NCBI RefSeq assembly: GCF_013166575.1 | Contig: NZ_JABKKE010000018.1 | Span: 1 to 64,000, forward strand | Direction of reading: 5' to 3' | From: Xylanibacter rodentium | Lineage (GTDB): Bacteria > Bacteroidota > Bacteroidia > Bacteroidales > Bacteroidaceae | DNA: 64,000 bases | In this document: positions 12,562 through 22,054 of the stretch, one piece after another | Layout: each line of letters begins with the position of its first letter | Position numbering within the stretch: position 1 is the stretch's first letter | Program-made: the position numbers and the translations under genes | The notes under the pieces: model-generated | The model's input: only the letters and a program-made list of their open reading frames with translations | Database searches by the model: none | Told to the model about the DNA's origin: nothing

Positions 12562-12602
12562 AAAAAAATGAGGAGACAACGTTATCACAACGTCACCTCC
12601 TC
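12562..12602 (-). terminator. Intrinsic terminator of the cohesin/dockerin operon
   Basis: Imperfect stem with GAGGAG and ACGTT paired to AACGT and CTCCTC (12570-12602), followed on the minus strand by a run of seven T. Confidence 0.75.
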
Positions 12603-12630: not shown

Positions 12631-13947
12631 TTACTTGTTTATAACCACTTTTTTACCGTTGATGATGTATACGCCCTTGGCGAGCTTGCCGTTCACACGT
12701 ACACCGCCTATGGTATAAACTCTGTCCTTGCCTGATGCATCGACATTGATGCCATTGATTCCGTCAAAGATTACGACCTCGAACTCGAGAACAATCTCTT
12801 CATTGCATTTGGCACCGCTCTTTATCGGATCGATAGCGTCGTACTTCTCGTCGAAGATTACGCCCTCAGGTATTGTCATCACGTATTTGCCGTTAGTCTC
12901 TATAACGTTGTTCAGTGTAACAATCACCTCGGTACTGCCCTCAACAAGCGACATTGTTACGGGAACCTCGTCTACCGTCTCACCGTCCTTGGTTACAACA
13001 GCCTTGGCACCATCGGAAACACCGCCTACGGGAGCGCTCATCGTTATGACAACCTCGCTAAGTTTCTCCACTACGTCGGCTGTGTCGGGCGTTACGCTCT
13101 TCATGGCGAAACGGCCCATAACCTTGAACTCGGCTGCGATGGCGCTGTTGCACTTCGCACCGCTCATTAAGGGATCTGCCGCATCATATTTCTCGTCGAA
13201 GAGCAAGCCCTCGGCAATTGTCATTGTGTAAACACCGCTCTCGGTGATTGCGTTAGTCAGAACTACCTTAACGTCAGCACTGCCGGCCTCGATAGCGATC
13301 GGAGCCTCCTCGATTGTTACACCGTCCTTGGAGATAACTGCCTTTGCACCATCGGCTACACCGCCTACAGGAGCACTCATAGTTACCACAATCTCACTGA
13401 GGCTATTCACAACCTCATCCGCAGAAGGAACCACACTCAGCATATCGAACTTAGCCATAGCGCGGGTAACGTCGCCCTTTAGTCCCTCGATGTACTCGCC
13501 ACCGGCAAACTTCACGTTGGAGAACTCAATCTGCGACTTGGCAGCCAGGTCATCGGCAGCCTTCACACGGAACGAGATAAGATTCTTGCCCGATACGAAG
13601 GGAGTGGATGTCATGCTGAACGCGATGATACGCACCAGACTCTCGCTCTCCTTAACCTCAGTGATGATGTGGTCGGCAGCGGCGTCGCCCAGTTTTACAA
13701 TCTTGCCGTTCTCCTCGGATGCCACATAGGTAAGACCCTGTGGCAGAGTGATGTTCATCTGGAAGCTCTTGCGGTCGGTGTCGCTTTCGTAAGCCACAGT
13801 CACCTCTGCCTCTTCTCCAGGAACAATCTCTATAGGCGACACGGTAAGTGTCTCCTGAGCCTTGGCCATCGACAGTATGCCGAACAGCATCAGCATGGCA
13901 AGTCCCAACTTGACCGAGACTATATTATGGATTTTATTCTTCTTCAT
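12631..13947 (-). CDS. Secreted protein with cohesin-like domain, two Ig-like repeats and a T9SS-like C-terminal tail
   Basis: 438 residues from the ATG at 13947; a longer frame opens at 13977, but a normal signal peptide begins at MKKNKIHN and ends at AKAQ. A cohesin-like beta-sandwich follows (about 23-160: SFQMNITLPQGLTYV, NLISFRVKAADDL). Two similar Ig-like repeats come next, each with ..LSEIVVTMSAPVGGV.DGAKAV.. and ..FDEKYDA.DP..SGAKCN... The C-terminus, RVYTIGGVRVNGKLAKGVYI and KKVVINK, resembles a type IX secretion (Por) sorting tail. It is the last gene of the operon that starts at 21541. Surface location is likely; the binding partner is unknown, plausibly one of the dockerin-bearing neighbours. 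Confidence 0.75.
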   Translation of the reverse strand: MKKNKIHNIVSVKLGLAMLMLFGILSMAKAQETLTVSPIEIVPGEEAEVTVAYESDTDRKSFQMNITLPQGLTYVASEENGKIVKLGDAAADHIITEVKESESLVRIIAFSMTSTPFVSGKNLISFRVKAADDLAAKSQIEFSNVKFAGGEYIEGLKGDVTRAMAKFDMLSVVPSADEVVNSLSEIVVTMSAPVGGVADGAKAVISKDGVTIEEAPIAIEAGSADVKVVLTNAITESGVYTMTIAEGLLFDEKYDAADPLMSGAKCNSAIAAEFKVMGRFAMKSVTPDTADVVEKLSEVVITMSAPVGGVSDGAKAVVTKDGETVDEVPVTMSLVEGSTEVIVTLNNVIETNGKYVMTIPEGVIFDEKYDAIDPIKSGAKCNEEIVLEFEVVIFDGINGINVDASGKDRVYTIGGVRVNGKLAKGVYIINGKKVVINK

Positions 13948-13985
13948 AATCATTCGTTTAAAAAAATCTGTTAGCAATCGTTGGT

Positions 13986-15188
13986 CTATTCACCCTCGCC
14001 GGTCTGCACCGACTTCATGATGCGCTCTACTACAGCGTCGAGGTCGTCTACCTCAATCTTTCCGTCGCGTGTCACGTCGTAGCGGCGGTCTGTGTTCTTA
14101 CCGATAAAGGCTTCGTCAATCCACTGCTGGAGGTCGTCCACGTTCCACTTGCCGTCACCGGTGATATCGCTGACAGGATTAACCTTGAACGCAGGGGCAC
14201 CGTCGATGACATACGACGTACCATTGACGCTCGACACCTTAACATTATATACCTTCACCTCGCCGGCCTCAGCGAAGTCGGCCGATGTCTTCAGACTGAA
14301 TGAGAACAACGCACCGTTGTTGCCATCAAACACATCTGCAGTGATTGACGATATCACCACGCGATACTGATTGGCAGCGGTCACGCCCGACAGCTTGCTT
14401 GCCATGATGGTAACGTTGTCGCTCAGGCGGCCGTCGTTGCCGAACACGTACTCACCGTCCTCGTCTGTGAGCAGAGTCACACCGAGCGGCAGGGTGATGT
14501 CGGCCTGCAATCCGGTAACGCGGATATCGTTTTCAAGATTGAACCTCACCTCCTGCACGTCGCCGTCGGTCCACATCGACAAATCGTCAGTGCGGTCGAG
14601 AGTGGCTGTGCCCACATGCAGATTGGCCTTGTACTCGTCGCATGTCAGTTCAACCGACTTTGATGCCACCCACTTGCCGTTCTCCACAATCTCTGTCGAA
14701 CCATAGCCGTTGTTGATGATGATTGTTCCCTCACGGAAGCTCGACTCAGCCACCACCGTGATTACCATTATAGCACCGTGGTTGCCCTTGAGGGCTGCCT
14801 TGGTCATGTCAGTAGCATTGGTGAGCAGGCCGGCACGGTAAACAGTATGCTGGTAGGTGTCCAAATCAGGCTGCGGCTCAAACATAAGCGTAAAGCCGTT
14901 CTTTGTCATTCGCGAAAGATCCTTGGCGGCTTTCTTATACTTCAGTCCGGCGGGCAGCGCTATGTCAAACTGCACCGACGAGATGGGTGTCTCGTTGTCA
15001 AGTTCGATGACAATGTCCTTTTCCTCACCCGGAATGAATGTCAGCCCGGCCTCCTGATTGATGCTCAGCTTGTTCACACCGAAGTCGTCTTGCGCCATAG
15101 CGGCCATGCTGCCGACTACGAACAGGACGACGGCGGCACAAAGACGTACTGTCAGGCGGCCCATGAATATATAGTTATTCTTGTTCAT
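13986..15188 (-). CDS. Secreted protein with two cohesin-like modules and a dockerin-like C-terminus
   Basis: 400 residues. A signal peptide (to about AAMAQ, residue 33) is followed by two cohesin-like beta-sandwich modules: SVQFDIALPAGLKYKKA and GLQADITLPLGVTLLTDEDG with later SFSLKTSADFAEAGEV. The C-terminus contains two calcium-loop repeats of dockerin type I, DITGDGKWNVDDLQQWI and YDVTRDGKIEVDDLDAVV. Dockerins bind cohesins with high affinity in cellulosomes, so one protein carrying both could self-assemble or chain to its neighbours. It lacks the sorting tail seen in the flanking gene products. It lies 38 bases before the last operon gene. The domain calls rest on motif reading only. Confidence 0.75.
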   Translation of the reverse strand: MNKNNYIFMGRLTVRLCAAVVLFVVGSMAAMAQDDFGVNKLSINQEAGLTFIPGEEKDIVIELDNETPISSVQFDIALPAGLKYKKAAKDLSRMTKNGFTLMFEPQPDLDTYQHTVYRAGLLTNATDMTKAALKGNHGAIMVITVVAESSFREGTIIINNGYGSTEIVENGKWVASKSVELTCDEYKANLHVGTATLDRTDDLSMWTDGDVQEVRFNLENDIRVTGLQADITLPLGVTLLTDEDGEYVFGNDGRLSDNVTIMASKLSGVTAANQYRVVISSITADVFDGNNGALFSFSLKTSADFAEAGEVKVYNVKVSSVNGTSYVIDGAPAFKVNPVSDITGDGKWNVDDLQQWIDEAFIGKNTDRRYDVTRDGKIEVDDLDAVVERIMKSVQTGEGE

Positions 15189-15292
15189 GTTACATTTACT
15201 TGTTTTATTTTGATGACAAGTCGTTCAGTTGAAAGGTACGGGGCCGGCCTTATGACCGGACGCCCCATTCCTTACCTAAACTAACCATCTTT
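15189..15292. other. Intercistronic spacer of the cohesin/dockerin operon
   Basis: 104 bases without a gene. A short GC-rich partial hairpin (GGGGCCGG facing CCGGACGCCCC) near 15240-15266 could attenuate transcription or stabilise mRNA between the giant gene and the next one. Confidence 0.4.
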
Positions 15293-18200
15293 TTATTTGT
15301 TAAAGACTTTCTTTGTCGTTCCGTCAGAACCTACGATGATGTTCACGCCCTTCTTCACGGCTTTCATCATCTGTCCGCCCACAGAGTAGATGCGCTCTTT
15401 CACTGTAGGAGCAGTGATGTCGGTGATACCCGTAGCCTCGTTGGAGCCTGCTCCGGCCAACTTATAAACGAGGCCCTTGGCATCGGAGAATATCACGTTG
15501 GAGAGTTCAACGTCGCCACCCTTGTAGTCGCCGCTCACCTCAACGTCGAGGTAAAGCATGGCGCCCGAGTTGCCCATGAAAGCGTTGTTGTCGAGCATCG
15601 AGACGAGCACGCGGTGCCATCCTCCGGCTATGTCGGCCGACATGAGCTCGTGGCCGTTGGCACGGTCGGTGAGGCTCTCGCCGGCGAGGGTCATGCCCTC
15701 GGGCAGCTTCACGTCAAGCTGGTAGCCAACATACTCGACAGCGTTGTCGAGGTTGACGGCCAGACAAACCTTCTTGCCGAAAATTGTTGTCTCCTCCGAC
15801 TCAACAGCCATCGTAACAGCGTCGGCAGTCTGCACCGGCACTGCCATCATGGCTCTTGCCATTGCAGGCGAAGCAGCCGGTTTGTCGGTCTCTTCGTCGG
15901 TCCATGCCCAGTCGTTGTGGAACATTAGGTTAGACACGCAGGTGAGGTCGCTCACGTTGATTTCCCTGTCGCCGTTCACGTCGGCACCGCCAGCCTTGGC
16001 CTCGCTCAGCTTGTCGAATGTGCTGTTCTCCGGATCGAGGATGTATGCACGGATGGTGTTGTAGTCGGACACGTTCACCAGTCCGTCGGCATTGGCATCG
16101 CCCACGTAGAAGCTCTTCTCTTCGGCATCCTTCACCAGCTGCTCAACCTCGGTCTTCAGCGTCTGATACTTGGCCTCTATCTCGTCGGCCACATCCATAT
16201 ATCCGCCTTCGAGCGTTACAGGAGCCGGATTCTCGTCCTTGTCGAGATACGGGTTGCCGTCGATGTCTCTGTTCAGCACACCGTTATCGGCCTCTCCATT
16301 GTAGTCATTTAGAGCAGACAGTGCATTGAGTATATCCCAGTACTTGCCACGCAGCTCGTTCTCTACCGACGGAAGATAGCGCTTGATCTTGCTCTGCTTG
16401 CCGTTGTCCGGATTTGCAGAGTTTGCGTTGAGCTTTCCCATCACATCATCAAGATCACCAAACTTGTCTGACATTCTCACTGCGGCGAATACGTATGTAG
16501 ACTTGGCGAGCAAATATTCGGTACCCTTCTCGATATTAGCCTTGTTGTCAACATCCACATCGTCCTTTGTCAGAACCACATCGGCATAATCCTTGTCGAG
16601 TGCCTCGGTAGATGCGGCAATGATGTCCTTAACGCCGTTGTACCAGTATGTGCGGTAGTCAACCCACTTGTATTCCTGCTTCTCTGCATCTACGAGCACG
16701 TCCGTTCCCGGGAACTGCACGTCCTCTTCCTCGTAGGCCATCACCTTGGTGTACACCTCGTCGAGAGCTGTTGTCAAGGTGCCCATCTGAGCGGTGAGCG
16801 CGGTGTAGGCGTCCTTGTTCTCTCTGTACTTCTGGTAAACAGTCTCCAGACCGCCAGCCTTCAGTATCTCGTCGAGCATGGCCTTCACGCCGTCGAGGTC
16901 GTTGTCGAGGTTGTCCTTGTGGAAGAGCAGCGACTCGTCGGCCTTCTTGCTCTCGATGTCAGCCCTTAGTTCGGCAAGAGCCTCTTTCACATCGTCCACA
17001 GCGTCACCGTAAGTAGACTTGGGCGAACCGAACTCGATGTCCTTGATGTTCTCGAACTCGGCAAACCAGCTGTCGATAGTGGCCAAAGTGGCGTCGATAC
17101 CACCGCAAGCTCCGTCGAGAGCCTCCACAGCCTCGTCGAATGCACCGGTCTTCTCCTCGTTCAGGTCGATGAGCTTCTTATACAGGCCTGCAATCTCCTT
17201 CTCAATGGCCAGATAGGCAGTCTGTGCAGCTGTCTCGGCAGCGGCTACGTTGTTAGGATTCTCAGCAATGGCCGTATTGTAAGTAATAACAACATCGTCC
17301 ACCTTGCCGGTGATGGCGTTGATGGCAGCCTCTATCTCCTTATCGGCCTTGTTCAGATCCTGAGCCACAACGTCGTTGTACAGTCCTTTCAGTACCGTAA
17401 CCTGACCCTTGAGGGCAATCGGCTCATACTGGGTGAGCATCTTGACACGCAGTTCACTAACCAAGACGCTGATAGTGCCGGGTATCTCCTCGGAACCCTC
17501 GCAGTAAGCCTTGGCACGTGTCAGAACGTCAGCGCAGTTGCCCTTGGTATAACCGGCCTCAGCGTCACTCAGGAACTTGTCGAGAGCAGCCTCTATATTC
17601 TGTAAATCTTTGGCAGAAGCGCTACCATCATGATGAGCCTCGAAGAACGAGTTGATGAAATCGATCGTCCCGGCCAGTCCCTCACGGGCCTTTGCCACCA
17701 CAGCGAATACATCGTCGAATGCCTTCTTGTTCAGTCCGTCGGCAAAGAGATCGTTGTAGATAAGGGCAAAGTTCTTTGTCTGCATCTGCTCCTTGTCTTC
17801 ATACACAATCGTTGTGTTAAACTTGGGCAGTCCGTTCAAAGCCACGGTCAGACTCTCGTATCTCTGGTCGCCGGCAATTTCAGTATAAGCCTTCTGTGCA
17901 GCCTCTATGTCCTTCGCAAACTGCTCGTTGAACTTCTTGGCAGCGTCGATACGCTCCTGTGTCACCTTGGGCTGACCGTCAGGACCGAGTATAGCGCTCG
18001 GCTCGAAGCCTGCGAGCATCTCTGCCTCCCACTGTATCTTGGTCTGAGCCTCAGCCTTGCGGTAGTTCCATTCCTTGTTGGCCAGCACGTCGTTCTCGGC
18101 GGTGATGAGGTCGGCGATAGAGTTGAGAGTCTCCAGATACGACTGCACCTTGTAAGCGAACAGCGGGTCGATTGTGCCGTTGGCATTCAGCAGTCCGGCC

Positions 18201-21200
18201 ATCTCCTTAGCCTCGGTCACGCTCTTGGTGATGTCGGCATAAGCCTCCTTGCGCACCTCCTCAGAGTAGCCTCTCGATACGAGTTCGGTGTTGGCGGCGG
18301 CAATGGCATTGTCGGCATCTGTTATCAGATTATCGTAGATAGCCTTGGCTGCTGTGTTGAGAGTGGTGCGATACTCCTCCATCTTGGCGTCAATATCATC
18401 ATTGTATTCGTTGGCCTTATTCACCCAAACGCCCACCTCGTACAGCTCGGTAACCTTGTCGCCGGTAGCCTTGTAGGGGCTGTAAGCGGCATCCTCGTCG
18501 ATATAGAGCTGGCGCAACTTGTCCACATATTCGTAAATTTTGGTGTGCACTTCAAGCAGTTCACCAGAAACGACGTTCTTGAGCTGCGGGTCTGTGATAG
18601 AAGCGAACAGGCTGAGGTCCTTGACTGCAGCCGAGAATGTCTCGTTGGCAGTGTTGTATGCAGCGACGAAGCGCTCATGGTTAGCCTGATTGGTGGCAAT
18701 CATGGCCTGCTTGTATTCGTCACCGGTAATCTCCTTGCCCAGACGGTCAACCATATCCTGTATGGTCTTCTGGAGATCGGCCACCTCTTTCTTGTCGGTA
18801 TCCGACAGTCCGGCAGCAAACTTGTCGGCAATCATCTTCTTGAGTTGCTCGATTGTGGTGGCGCGTGCCTCCTCTATCTCTGCCAGACGGCGTGTTGCCT
18901 CGCTGGTCTTGTCCTCTGTCTGTATCTTGTTGTAGAGCTTGTTTACATCGTTCTCCAACTTGGTGAAAGCGTCAACCTGGCTGTTGTGGGCCTTTTCGTT
19001 GGCATCCACCCTGCCCTGAACCTTATCTATCTCTTTCTTCAGATTGTCAAGAGCTGCTTTCGTTACAAGAGCATCCTTGGTGTGGCATGCCACTTTCTCC
19101 AAGTCGGTAGCGAGGTCTGTAACAGCCTTGTTGTACTGTGCCTCGTATCCCTCGGTGAGCACCTTGTCATAAAAGTAGTTGAGACCCGCTGCACCGTATG
19201 TTGAACGCTTGCTATCTATATAGTTTTTCTGCTTCGTTATTGCAGCCTCAATATCGTTCAACTGCTTGACACGGGCATTATATTCCTTGTAGCTCTTCTT
19301 GGCATTGTCGAGAGCCGTCTCCAGCTCTTCCACCTGTGCGGTATAGCTCTTCTCTGCATCGGTACCGATGTTTGCCTTTGCTATAAAGTCGGTCACAGCC
19401 TTAGAGAAAGCCGTAGCGGCAGCATGCTTCTTGTTGAAGATTTCATCTTCGGTATCGCCGGTAACTTCATCTATGGCGTTGTATTTTGTTTTCAGTTCAT
19501 CAAATGCCGTAGCTATCGTTGTGCTGAGCGCATCAGCCTTAGTACCAATAGCCGTACTCTGTGCGTCACCACAATCTGTCGCTGTGGCACCATTCTTCAC
19601 ATCGGTTATACGATTGCCAAGTCCGTTGGCAAGTCTCTGTGCCGTGCCCAGCATTGTTTCGGCAGCGTCGATGGTCACCTGCTTGTCGTAGTGAGCCTTG
19701 TCGGCGGCGAAAGCGCCCTTCAAGGCGATAAGTTGCTCGGCGGTGTATCCAATACTCCACTTAGCGACCCGCTCCATTTCGAGAATATGGTCGGCACCAT
19801 CCTTTTTGTTGGCACCGGCAATGCCATCGGTAATCTTAGTGGTATCGGCCTTTACAGCATCAATAACATTGCCATAGCTCTTGTCTTCATAACCTTCCAA
19901 AAGAATAGGCACTGTGGTGTTCTTGCCAACGATGTCGGTCAGGTCGGTAAGCGACGGCTCGATAGCTTCAATTTTACCGCGGGCTGTATTGTAAGCATCA
20001 AGACCTCTTTTCCAACGACCCACATACTCTTTCTTAATAAGATTCTTGATCGTGGTAAGACTTTTCAAGAATGCGTCCTTGTTGACCACGGCAGTACCAT
20101 CCTTGTAATATCCGTCGGCCTCGGTAGCTTTGGCGGCCAACGCATCGCGGTGCGTCTTCTCCACTCCGGTGAAGTGAGCACCGGCATTGTAAAGTCCGTC
20201 TTCCGACAGTGTCTCGGTGGCCTCCTTTACTGTCTCATCCAGATAAGCCACAACCTTGCCCACCTCGTCGGTCATGGTGAAATGAGCGTTAAACTCGGCC
20301 ACAGCAGTGTTTGTCTTGTCCTGTAGAGCGGTGAACTGAGTGTTGATGCTCTCCATTGCAGCAGCAGTGTCGAACACTGTCTTGTCCTCAGTACCCGATG
20401 TGCGGCCCTCGGTGAGTTTGTCCTTCAGAGCATCGATTTCACCACGAATCTTGTCCACAGCCTCCTTGTTCTCGTCAAGCAAGCCGGCACCGGTGAGACC
20501 CTCTACATACTTGTTGAACGATGTTTCAAAGTCGGTCACCTCTTTCCAAGCATCGTCGTAAGCCTGTTTCAGGTCAGTATACTTTTCAAGTACGGTAGGA
20601 ACGGTAGTAAGCAGTGCGTTTGCATCAGTAAGCAGCGACTCGATGGTTGCCTTTACGCCACCATCAGCATCGTCGGCATAGCCCACCTTCTTGGTATCGT
20701 CGTTGGCCACATTGCCGAGCGTATATGCCTCGTCAATCTTGTTGGCAGCCACACTCAGTTCTTTCTTGGCTTTCTCATACCATGCCAAGTAGTCATTCTT
20801 ATCAGGTGTCAGATTCTTCACAAGTCCTTCGAGCTGTCCGTCGTAATTGGTGCGAAGATCTTTCACCTTTTCATTCAGTTCGGTCTTGGCGGCATCGTTG
20901 GCAGCGTAAGTGGCAGCCTTTGCGTCCATAACGGCACGTCCGTCACTACCGGTATTGGCAGCGGCCACATTGCGGAGTTCCTTGGTCAGGTTCTCGATAT
21001 CTTTCGACAGGCTTTCCGACTTTTCGTTCAGTTCGTCACCTTTTTCGATATATCCCTTTTCGTCCTTATAGTCTGTTATCTGCTTTCCCTTTGCGTCGAT
21101 TTTCAAACCATCAATTTGTCCATTCTTATAATCGCAGAACGCTTTCGTATATTCAGGAGTGTGCGACATATTCAACCAATCTTTCCAGAATTTCTTCTCT

Positions 21201-21541
21201 TCTGCAAGAGCATCGAATTTCTTTGTCAGATCATTGAATGTGAGATAGTAAGAAAGCTCCTTGATAGACCGTGCGTCGATATCATTCATCTTGTCACGAT
21301 AGTACTTCTCGCCTTTAGCCAATTCTGTATCGGCGGTGAGTTCTGTCTGCAAGGTGGTGAGTTCGAGAACATAATTGTCTCTGCTTCCCTCATACAAATC
21401 CCCGTATAGACTTATCTTCTGAATAAGCACACCGATCTCCGTTAACAGCTGACTGTGAATTTCTTGAGGTGTAGCGGCCTGCGCTGATACAGACACGCTC
21501 ACCGCCGCCATGGCGGCCAAAGAAAGTGTAGTTTTGTTCAT
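15293..21541 (-). CDS. Giant secreted coiled-coil protein with dockerin-like, cohesin-like and sorting-tail modules
   Basis: 2,082 residues. A signal peptide (about 1-22, SVSVSAQA) precedes roughly 1,780 residues that are almost wholly charged and helical (Asp, Glu, Lys and Ala rich, few Pro or Cys), suggesting a very long rod or many helical bundles. At about 1810-1877 are two dockerin-type calcium loops (GDANADGLVNVSD and DVNGDREINVSD). At about 1915-2028 is a cohesin-like domain (VEYVGYQLDVKLPEGMTL, SGAMLYLDVEVSGDY). The end (RIYSVGGQMMKAVKKGVNI, TKKVFNK) looks like a T9SS sorting tail. A -7 box TATCTTTG (21607-21600, minus) sits upstream. It is first of three co-directional genes. I infer a surface scaffold or filament; no enzyme domain is visible. 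Confidence 0.8.
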   Translation of the reverse strand: MNKTTLSLAAMAAVSVSVSAQAATPQEIHSQLLTEIGVLIQKISLYGDLYEGSRDNYVLELTTLQTELTADTELAKGEKYYRDKMNDIDARSIKELSYYLTFNDLTKKFDALAEEKKFWKDWLNMSHTPEYTKAFCDYKNGQIDGLKIDAKGKQITDYKDEKGYIEKGDELNEKSESLSKDIENLTKELRNVAAANTGSDGRAVMDAKAATYAANDAAKTELNEKVKDLRTNYDGQLEGLVKNLTPDKNDYLAWYEKAKKELSVAANKIDEAYTLGNVANDDTKKVGYADDADGGVKATIESLLTDANALLTTVPTVLEKYTDLKQAYDDAWKEVTDFETSFNKYVEGLTGAGLLDENKEAVDKIRGEIDALKDKLTEGRTSGTEDKTVFDTAAAMESINTQFTALQDKTNTAVAEFNAHFTMTDEVGKVVAYLDETVKEATETLSEDGLYNAGAHFTGVEKTHRDALAAKATEADGYYKDGTAVVNKDAFLKSLTTIKNLIKKEYVGRWKRGLDAYNTARGKIEAIEPSLTDLTDIVGKNTTVPILLEGYEDKSYGNVIDAVKADTTKITDGIAGANKKDGADHILEMERVAKWSIGYTAEQLIALKGAFAADKAHYDKQVTIDAAETMLGTAQRLANGLGNRITDVKNGATATDCGDAQSTAIGTKADALSTTIATAFDELKTKYNAIDEVTGDTEDEIFNKKHAAATAFSKAVTDFIAKANIGTDAEKSYTAQVEELETALDNAKKSYKEYNARVKQLNDIEAAITKQKNYIDSKRSTYGAAGLNYFYDKVLTEGYEAQYNKAVTDLATDLEKVACHTKDALVTKAALDNLKKEIDKVQGRVDANEKAHNSQVDAFTKLENDVNKLYNKIQTEDKTSEATRRLAEIEEARATTIEQLKKMIADKFAAGLSDTDKKEVADLQKTIQDMVDRLGKEITGDEYKQAMIATNQANHERFVAAYNTANETFSAAVKDLSLFASITDPQLKNVVSGELLEVHTKIYEYVDKLRQLYIDEDAAYSPYKATGDKVTELYEVGVWVNKANEYNDDIDAKMEEYRTTLNTAAKAIYDNLITDADNAIAAANTELVSRGYSEEVRKEAYADITKSVTEAKEMAGLLNANGTIDPLFAYKVQSYLETLNSIADLITAENDVLANKEWNYRKAEAQTKIQWEAEMLAGFEPSAILGPDGQPKVTQERIDAAKKFNEQFAKDIEAAQKAYTEIAGDQRYESLTVALNGLPKFNTTIVYEDKEQMQTKNFALIYNDLFADGLNKKAFDDVFAVVAKAREGLAGTIDFINSFFEAHHDGSASAKDLQNIEAALDKFLSDAEAGYTKGNCADVLTRAKAYCEGSEEIPGTISVLVSELRVKMLTQYEPIALKGQVTVLKGLYNDVVAQDLNKADKEIEAAINAITGKVDDVVITYNTAIAENPNNVAAAETAAQTAYLAIEKEIAGLYKKLIDLNEEKTGAFDEAVEALDGACGGIDATLATIDSWFAEFENIKDIEFGSPKSTYGDAVDDVKEALAELRADIESKKADESLLFHKDNLDNDLDGVKAMLDEILKAGGLETVYQKYRENKDAYTALTAQMGTLTTALDEVYTKVMAYEEEDVQFPGTDVLVDAEKQEYKWVDYRTYWYNGVKDIIAASTEALDKDYADVVLTKDDVDVDNKANIEKGTEYLLAKSTYVFAAVRMSDKFGDLDDVMGKLNANSANPDNGKQSKIKRYLPSVENELRGKYWDILNALSALNDYNGEADNGVLNRDIDGNPYLDKDENPAPVTLEGGYMDVADEIEAKYQTLKTEVEQLVKDAEEKSFYVGDANADGLVNVSDYNTIRAYILDPENSTFDKLSEAKAGGADVNGDREINVSDLTCVSNLMFHNDWAWTDEETDKPAASPAMARAMMAVPVQTADAVTMAVESEETTIFGKKVCLAVNLDNAVEYVGYQLDVKLPEGMTLAGESLTDRANGHELMSADIAGGWHRVLVSMLDNNAFMGNSGAMLYLDVEVSGDYKGGDVELSNVIFSDAKGLVYKLAGAGSNEATGITDITAPTVKERIYSVGGQMMKAVKKGVNIIVGSDGTTKKVFNK

Positions 21542-21599: not shown

Positions 21600-21607
21600 C
21601 AAAGATA
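21600..21607 (-). promoter_or_regulatory. -7 box upstream of the giant coiled-coil gene
   Basis: TATCTTTG on the minus strand, 59 bases before the ATG at 21541. The nearest upstream TTG is 16 bases away, shorter than the usual spacer, so the promoter may need an activator; the LytTR protein encoded just upstream is a candidate (inference). Confidence 0.5.
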
Positions 21608-21691
21608 AACATTTAAATTACGGCAACGGTTATAAAAAAATGTGGTTTCCGTGAACCTGCCGGTTTATTTCGCGAATCTCTGCGGTGACGC

Positions 21692-22054
21692 CTACTGCGG
21701 CCTCATATTGTCTATCAATGTGCGCAACACGGGCTTGGGGATCTTCACCGCCACGGTGCCGCCGCTGTCGTCGGCCAAGAGCAGTTGCTGCTTGATGGTG
21801 CTCACATGGAATATGCGACGTGTGTTGACAATGTGCTTCCGCCCCAACCGCACGAATGCCTCGCTGCCCTCGGGCTGTTCGCCGATGGCAGACTCCACTT
21901 TCGACAGTCCGAAAGGCAGCATGAAGTGAGTGCCCGAGGCGTAGTATACGTGCGAGTAATGGTCGTCGGCCTGGAAGTACATCACCTGTCCGAGGTCGAC
22001 CACATACAGTTCGTCGTAAAGTCCGAAGCACAGCCGGCCGGTACGTGTATCCAT
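21692..22054 (-). CDS. Stand-alone LytTR DNA-binding regulator
   Basis: 120 residues consisting almost entirely of a LytTR domain: LYVVDLGQVMYFQADDHYSHVYYASG, then EAFVRLGRKHIVNTRRIFHV, then VKIPKPVLRTLIDNM. LytTR domains bind direct repeats as dimers and usually sit behind a receiver domain; here there is none, so control must come from expression level or another input. A -7 box TACCTTTG is at 22125-22118 on the minus strand. It lies 150 bases upstream of the giant cohesin/dockerin gene in the same direction, which makes it the obvious candidate regulator of that operon. Confidence 0.88.
   Translation of the reverse strand: MDTRTGRLCFGLYDELYVVDLGQVMYFQADDHYSHVYYASGTHFMLPFGLSKVESAIGEQPEGSEAFVRLGRKHIVNTRRIFHVSTIKQQLLLADDSGGTVAVKIPKPVLRTLIDNMRPQ

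Follow-up and report, generated by a model that had tools for sequence, protein, structure and literature searches.

A rod operon of Xylanibacter rodentium with cohesins, dockerins and type IX secretion tails suggests that a terminal dockerin can substitute for a sorting tail

Cohesin–dockerin pairs are known from cellulosomes, and here we describe both modules in a three-gene operon of secreted proteins on the minus strand of a 64,000-nucleotide stretch of the Xylanibacter rodentium genome (positions 1 to 64,000 of contig NZ_JABKKE010000018.1, assembly GCF_013166575.1; hereafter the window). With cellulosome scaffoldins, such as the ScaA dyad of Acetivibrio cellulolyticus (Protein Data Bank, PDB, 3l8q), the operon shares the cohesin fold, a tandem of cohesins ahead of a C-terminal dockerin, and dockerin repeats with mirrored recognition residues. 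It differs from them in having no dockerin-bearing glycoside hydrolase, in its predicted anchoring through tails of the type IX secretion system (T9SS), and in having a helical rod as passenger. The closest solved single-module cohesins by fold belong to the glycoside hydrolase pairs of Clostridium perfringens (2jh2, 2w1n, 2vo8), which join secreted proteins outside cellulosomes, as the pairs here probably do. In C. perfringens, a Gram-positive, the modules belong to carbohydrate-active enzymes, whereas ours sit on a rod and on non-enzymatic T9SS-tailed proteins of a Gram-negative.

Within the Bacteroidota, cohesins and dockerins have often been reported absent (e.g., PMC5831590), and rumen surveys, which cover the same phylum and the habitat of many relatives of our operon, tentatively tie Bacteroidetes dockerins and cohesins to cellulosomes (PMC4035507, PMC6071333); T9SS tails, pairing and the rod are not described there. 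Short T9SS C-terminal domains (CTDs) are known from Prevotella intermedia cargo and resemble the tails found here in length, in a T|GI cleavage-like site and in motifs B, D and E, with the GxN subgroup included; dockerins go unmentioned in that work (PMC11969387), whereas here a dockerin appears to replace the tail of gene 2. In the open-access literature we found no paper linking Bacteroidota cohesins or dockerins to T9SS tails, LytTR regulators or a rod, and none describing a dockerin in place of a T9SS sorting tail. Our analysis suggests a reading other than the cellulosome hints, namely that these pairs would attach rods, peptidases, serpins and leucine-rich repeat (LRR) proteins in modular fashion to T9SS-anchored surface proteins. 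It also raises a question testable in cultured strains, how secreted proteins without tails get to the surface of T9SS bacteria and remain there.

A conserved operon of cohesin and dockerin proteins

The genome (3.53 Mb in 67 contigs, 99.95% complete) has Prevotella as its closest named relatives. The operon comprises:

15293..21541, minus strand: gene 1, 2082-amino-acid (aa) secreted rod protein (open reading frame, ORF)
13986..15188, minus strand: gene 2, 400-aa secreted cohesin–cohesin–dockerin protein without sorting tail (ORF, AlphaFold model)
12631..13947, minus strand: gene 3, ~438-aa secreted protein with a cohesin, two Big_5 domains and a sorting tail (ORF, Pfam)

A preliminary description of the window, made from its letters alone, had placed three co-directional genes with signal peptides here, and the ORFs bear out both their positions and their strand. 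Gaps of 104 bp and 38 bp separate gene 1 from gene 2 and gene 2 from gene 3; for gene 3 an ATG at 13947 is a more likely start than a TTG at 13977. The modules are as follows:

16142..21475, minus strand: gene 1 helical rod, ~residues 23-1800, of conserved length (self-BLAST; C-terminal model)
15911..16108, minus strand: gene 1 dockerin, residues 1812-1877 (Pfam; PDB profile)
15440..15820, minus strand: gene 1 cohesin, residues 1908-2034 (model; Foldseek)
15296..15430, minus strand: gene 1 T9SS short CTD, GxN subgroup, residues 2038-2082 (motif comparison, PMC11969387)
14685..15077, minus strand: gene 2 cohesin A, residues 38-168 (AlphaFold model, fold search)
14181..14621, minus strand: gene 2 cohesin B, residues 190-336 (AlphaFold model, fold search)
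14013..14174, minus strand: gene 2 C-terminal dockerin, residues 339-392 (family profile, AlphaFold model)
13468..13863, minus strand: gene 3 cohesin, ~residues 29-160 (hhalign)
12850..13455, minus strand: gene 3, two Big_5 Ig-like domains, missing from short orthologues (Pfam Big_5 E 3.4e-8, alignment)
12634..12762, minus strand: gene 3 T9SS short CTD, GxY type (motif comparison, PMC11969387)

Both dockerins are built as type I-like dockerins are, from two calcium-binding loops of 12 residues with a helix behind each; recognition residues are mirrored between the repeats in gene 2 and less clearly so in gene 1. Residues 1814-1871 of gene 1 match Pfam Dockerin_1 above the cut-off (E 1.8e-7), and the family profile finds solved dockerins (e.g., 4fl4, E 7.2e-9), although the second calcium loop reads NGDRE where a glycine is usual. 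Searched alone, the gene 2 dockerin stays below the Pfam threshold (E 0.33), whereas solved dockerins rank first for its family profile (6kgc, E 1.9e-4).

No cohesin of the three genes passes the Pfam cut-off, and their nine-stranded jelly-roll beta-sandwich was recognized by structure and profile. In the AlphaFold model of gene 2 (mean confidence, pLDDT, 84.8) a pair of beta-sandwiches precedes a two-helix dockerin; among PDB structures the model comes closest to the A. cellulolyticus type II cohesin dyad, and it aligns with the C. perfringens cohesin 2jh2 at TM 0.74-0.77. A Foldseek search with the gene 1 C-terminus gave 26 PDB matches at E<=0.001, of which 24 are cohesins or cohesin complexes. 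The gene 3 cohesin matches that of gene 2 with 99.2% probability (hhalign) and is homologous to the other cohesins of the operon. Folds and profiles thus agree with the preliminary description in seeing dockerins in genes 1 and 2 and cohesins in all three. Its view that every part carries both partners fails at gene 3, which has a cohesin and two Big_5 domains and no dockerin. The slot between cohesin and tail varies in this gene: at L081:17098-19935 the protein is 945 aa long, with a long insertion at the position that the two Big_5 domains take in the window.

The sorting-like tails noticed earlier on genes 1 and 3 match T9SS short CTDs by motif. Their last 43-45 residues include a cleavage-like GI (T|GI in the case of gene 1), Y..GG as motif B, GxN or GxY with a following Ile as motif D, and a basic motif E, so that signal peptide and short CTD occur together in genes 1 and 3 and not in gene 2. 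TIGR04183 does not recognise the tails in the window; it recognises 13/22 tails in the same position on proteins of like build. The secretion machinery is encoded as well: SprA is present here (2660 bits) and in 12/12 other genomes tested, compared to 0/14 controls, and PorU scores 977 bits in this genome. T9SS anchoring, like the regulator with its operator and the dockerin-for-tail replacement below, had not been part of the preliminary description.

Hydrophobicity along the gene 1 rod has a period of 3.4-3.6 residues, and the modelled part of the rod shows helices of 25-40 residues. Self-BLAST, a check that had been proposed earlier, found no internal sequence repeats. Across 15 proteins the length up to the dockerin is 1809 +/- 110 aa despite ~22-27% identity; helical periodicity, constant length and low identity would fit a structural spacer. 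NCBIfam SMC/Rad50 matches on the rod were discarded as matches to coiled-coil composition.

Relatives were found by querying genome contigs with an alignment; a single-protein query gave none. A rod orthologue with a matching downstream cohesin gene occurs in 15 other loci of Prevotella, Paraprevotella and Bacteroidales, including Prevotella sp. P2-180, Paraprevotella clara YIT 11840 and P. xylaniphila YIT 11841, so that the neighbourhood is conserved as a unit. Of the outcomes named earlier as refuting the preliminary description, the two examined here, folds of another kind and a lack of conservation as a unit, were thus not observed. Dockerin and cohesin lie side by side in every gene 1 orthologue. 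More widely, among 97 non-redundant proteins ending in dockerin–cohesin, collected by searching the first protein and not selected for the second, 65 have a cohesin protein encoded by the gene directly downstream. Of the 63 downstream proteins in these runs, 23 finish with a dockerin; the remaining complete ones almost all finish with a tail, some tails being judged by eye.

Dockerins in place of sorting tails

Several lines of evidence, taken together, suggest that a terminal dockerin substitutes for the T9SS sorting tail: a switch on the tree, a cassette swap, a distance correlation, mirrored recognition residues, the clustering of modules in the genome and the C10 peptidases. Nine operons have both a gene 2 with a terminal dockerin and a gene 3; the other seven, in which gene 2 bears a tail of its own, lack gene 3. 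On the tree of the gene 1 C-terminus this pattern amounts to one switch (support 95/94), leading to a single derived clade and combining loss of the tail, gain of the dockerin and gain of the cohesin-plus-tail gene.

The swap concerns L088, from the metagenome-assembled genome (MAG) SUG722. Its rod and gene 2 cohesins resemble L080, an operon copy of MAG SUG272, while its gene 2 dockerin and gene 3 cohesin share 90% and 88% aa identity with L083 (42% and 38% with L080), and L080-like flanking sequence resumes after gene 3. By this comparison a natural cassette swap carried the gene 2 dockerin and the gene 3 cohesin jointly into L088. The pairwise distances of the gene 2 dockerin correlate with those of the gene 3 cohesin at r 0.75 and with those of the equally close gene 2 cohesin B at 0.20, a difference that mostly restates the swap, since the figure drops once L088 is left out. 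At positions 10, 11 and 14 of the gene 2 dockerin repeats, residues agree in 22/27 comparisons within a dockerin and in 62/216 between dockerins, and these residues differ between two operon copies within one genome.

All dockerin and cohesin domains of the X. rodentium genome sit in three clusters, each holding both. In addition to the operon these are L006 (contig 7), a 2,338-aa cohesin...dockerin protein followed by a cohesin–tail protein, and L007 (contig 24), an 809-aa C10-peptidase-like dockerin protein, again followed by a cohesin–tail protein. The dockerin proteins of L006 and L007 are unrelated, with 15% identity over the 300 residues before their last 75, but the dockerin-containing last 75 share 61% and the cohesin–tail followers 82%. 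When 16 complete C10 peptidases of the genus, a sample not chosen for dockerins, were inspected, 15 ended in a tail (some judged by eye), one in a dockerin, and none in both or neither; further cases agree.

Terminal dockerins also occur on a serpin, an M6 peptidase, BspA-type LRR proteins and an InlB-repeat protein of gut and rumen Bacteroidales (L107:23426-24847, L123:16666-20418, L143:1304-9662, L095, L100, L139).

The LytTR regulator and a putative operator

Upstream of gene 1 lie the following features:

21692..22054, minus strand: LytTR DNA-binding regulator, 120 aa, without receiver domain, co-directional and 150 bp upstream of gene 1 (Pfam LytTR E 1.2e-6)
21648..21676, minus strand: putative LytTR operator, direct repeats TTCGCGAA / TTCACGGA with a 21-bp period (repeat scan across loci)
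21600..21626, minus strand: Bacteroidota-like promoter match TTG-N19-TATCTTTG (pattern match only)

LytTR-family regulators use direct-repeat operators with a period of ~21 bp. The operon resembles these systems in its paired direct repeats of that period beside a LytTR gene, and differs from them in that the regulator has no receiver domain and adjoins a surface rod operon, an arrangement for which we found no published case. LytTR genes adjoin the operon in relatives too, and direct repeats like TTCACGAA, with a period of exactly 21 bp, precede gene 1 in 9/15 loci, compared to 0.02 expected. Three loci (L083, L084, L088) carry another type of LytTR protein, 74-95% identical among themselves and 29-38% identical to the first type, and these have TTCRTC-N15-TTCRTC instead. 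Regulator type corresponds to operator type in every locus where both were read; for L080 the regulator sequence comes from an adjacent contig of its MAG. Because the two types agree across loci, we regard this as good evidence that the operon is under LytTR control.

The promoter pattern is present in only a minority of the relatives' loci. Downstream of the operon we noted one further candidate, of a kind that occurs about equally often in shuffled sequence:

12570..12602, minus strand: terminator-like hairpin 3' of gene 3, 15 pairs then a T run (pattern scan)

A proposed assembly at the cell surface

In T9SS biology, PorU cleaves the tail of its cargo and joins the new C-terminus to surface polysaccharide. 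If it does so in gene 1, the new C-terminus would fall directly behind the cohesin, cohesin and dockerin would stay at the cell-proximal base, and the ~1,800-residue rod would point outward. Gene 3 would be a small T9SS-anchored cohesin, and the C-terminal dockerin of the tail-less gene 2 would bind it, presumably in a calcium-dependent manner, and keep gene 2 at the surface. The two gene 2 cohesins would most likely bind the basal dockerin of one rod or of two and so clamp or cross-link the layer, which the Paraprevotella-type form could achieve with two genes, its gene 2 bearing its own tail. We consider it somewhat more likely than not that the LytTR-controlled operon builds such a T9SS-anchored fibre layer, with gene 3 tethering gene 2 and gene 2 clamping rods; the layer may serve in adhesion, in biofilms or as a coat. 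Were the rod a chain of short helical bundles, the layer would by a rough estimate measure 80-100 nm.

Several observations weigh against this proposal. The nine-versus-seven pattern reflects a single switch on the tree, and we therefore rejected counting it as 16 independent cases. L088 is a metagenome assembly, and its swapped pieces adjoin, so that linkage alone could have moved them together; with L088 left out the gene 2 dockerin correlates at 0.55 with the gene 3 cohesin and at 0.48 with gene 2 cohesin B. In two other genomes dockerin-ended C10 peptidases have no adjacent cohesin gene, which makes adjacency of a cohesin gene to dockerin-ended proteins common, not universal. The mirror-tree comparison does not single out the cohesin of the gene 1 dockerin, and the proposal does not account for how gene 2 would cross the outer membrane without a tail. 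It is tempting to speculate that the dockerin acts as a relay export signal, the tail-less protein binding its tailed cohesin partner in the periplasm, both passing the SprA pore and being fixed at the surface together; we hold this piggyback form of T9SS export only tentatively.

The preliminary description had pictured proteins that snap together into a surface scaffold or filament, with the rod as spacer and no enzyme attached. The scaffold with its spacer is still the best reading; the evidence points to an asymmetric tether from gene 2 dockerin to gene 3 cohesin more than to a self-snapping filament. In a filament the dockerin of each rod would lock into its neighbour's cohesin; gene 1 would polymerise, with caps or branch points supplied by genes 2 and 3. 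The adjacency of the two modules in all gene 1 orthologues and their identical order in the 97 proteins would suit this, as would the correlation of their distances (r 0.61, partial 0.44). However, the gene 1 dockerin correlates as well with gene 2 cohesin B (0.63) and with the rod itself (0.65), and since these values are no lower, shared history explains the first. Over 56 pairs the partial correlation of gene 1-type dockerins is 0.25 with their own cohesin and 0.35 with the downstream gene's cohesin, a weak hint that the latter is the preferred partner. An anchored C-terminus would moreover put both modules at the base, where lateral links would suit better than end-to-end growth, and we consider the filament unlikely. 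The modules could alternatively have structural roles only, as calcium-binding and Ig-like domains without affinity for each other, leaving three separate surface proteins. Cohesins diverged past Pfam recognition, the NGDRE loop of gene 1 and the sub-threshold gene 2 dockerin are what this would predict. It seems improbable given the mirrored recognition positions, which differ between copies in the same genome, the L088 swap, the joint gain of gene 2 dockerin and gene 3, and the recurrence of dockerin/cohesin pairing in unrelated clusters.

It is also conceivable, if somewhat less probable still, that gene 2, having a signal peptide and no tail, stays in the periplasm and with its dockerin holds the gene 1 or gene 3 products before export, as a chaperone or in a queue. 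Against this, gene 2 has its own tail in other lineages, so that the ancestral protein was probably exported, and C10 peptidases, otherwise tail-bearing, likewise carry dockerins instead. The least credible reading is a cellulosome-like scaffold displaying dockerin-bearing enzymes for polysaccharide breakdown. Its module types are those of cellulosomes, and six-cohesin proteins do occur in some Bacteroidales loci. Yet genome-wide searches found dockerins only on genes 1 and 2, a CARDB-like protein, the C10 peptidase and one PKD-like cohesin protein, and none on a glycoside hydrolase, as the absence of attached enzymes in the preliminary description had implied; the passengers of terminal dockerins in relatives are peptidases, a serpin, LRR and InlB-like proteins. 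With no dockerin on a carbohydrate-active enzyme in this inventory, we rejected the cellulosome reading.

Related loci vary in architecture. In Muribaculaceae/Bacteroidales (L098:9047-13530, L101, L105, L106, L113, L116, L117) a protein of ~915 aa with six cohesins and a C-terminal dockerin directly follows a dockerin–cohesin–tail protein, a scaffoldin-like architecture beside a T9SS-tailed partner. Four-gene versions (L074/L118, L075) consist of proteins, some of 2.4-2.6 thousand residues, that all have cohesins and their own sorting tail, and most also carry dockerins. Two MAGs each hold two diverged copies of the whole operon, SUG272 (L083 and L080) and SRR5976186_bin.22 (L089 and L090), and within each the copies differ in dockerin recognition residues. 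The gene 3 tails of both SUG272 copies are identical, which suggests gene conversion.

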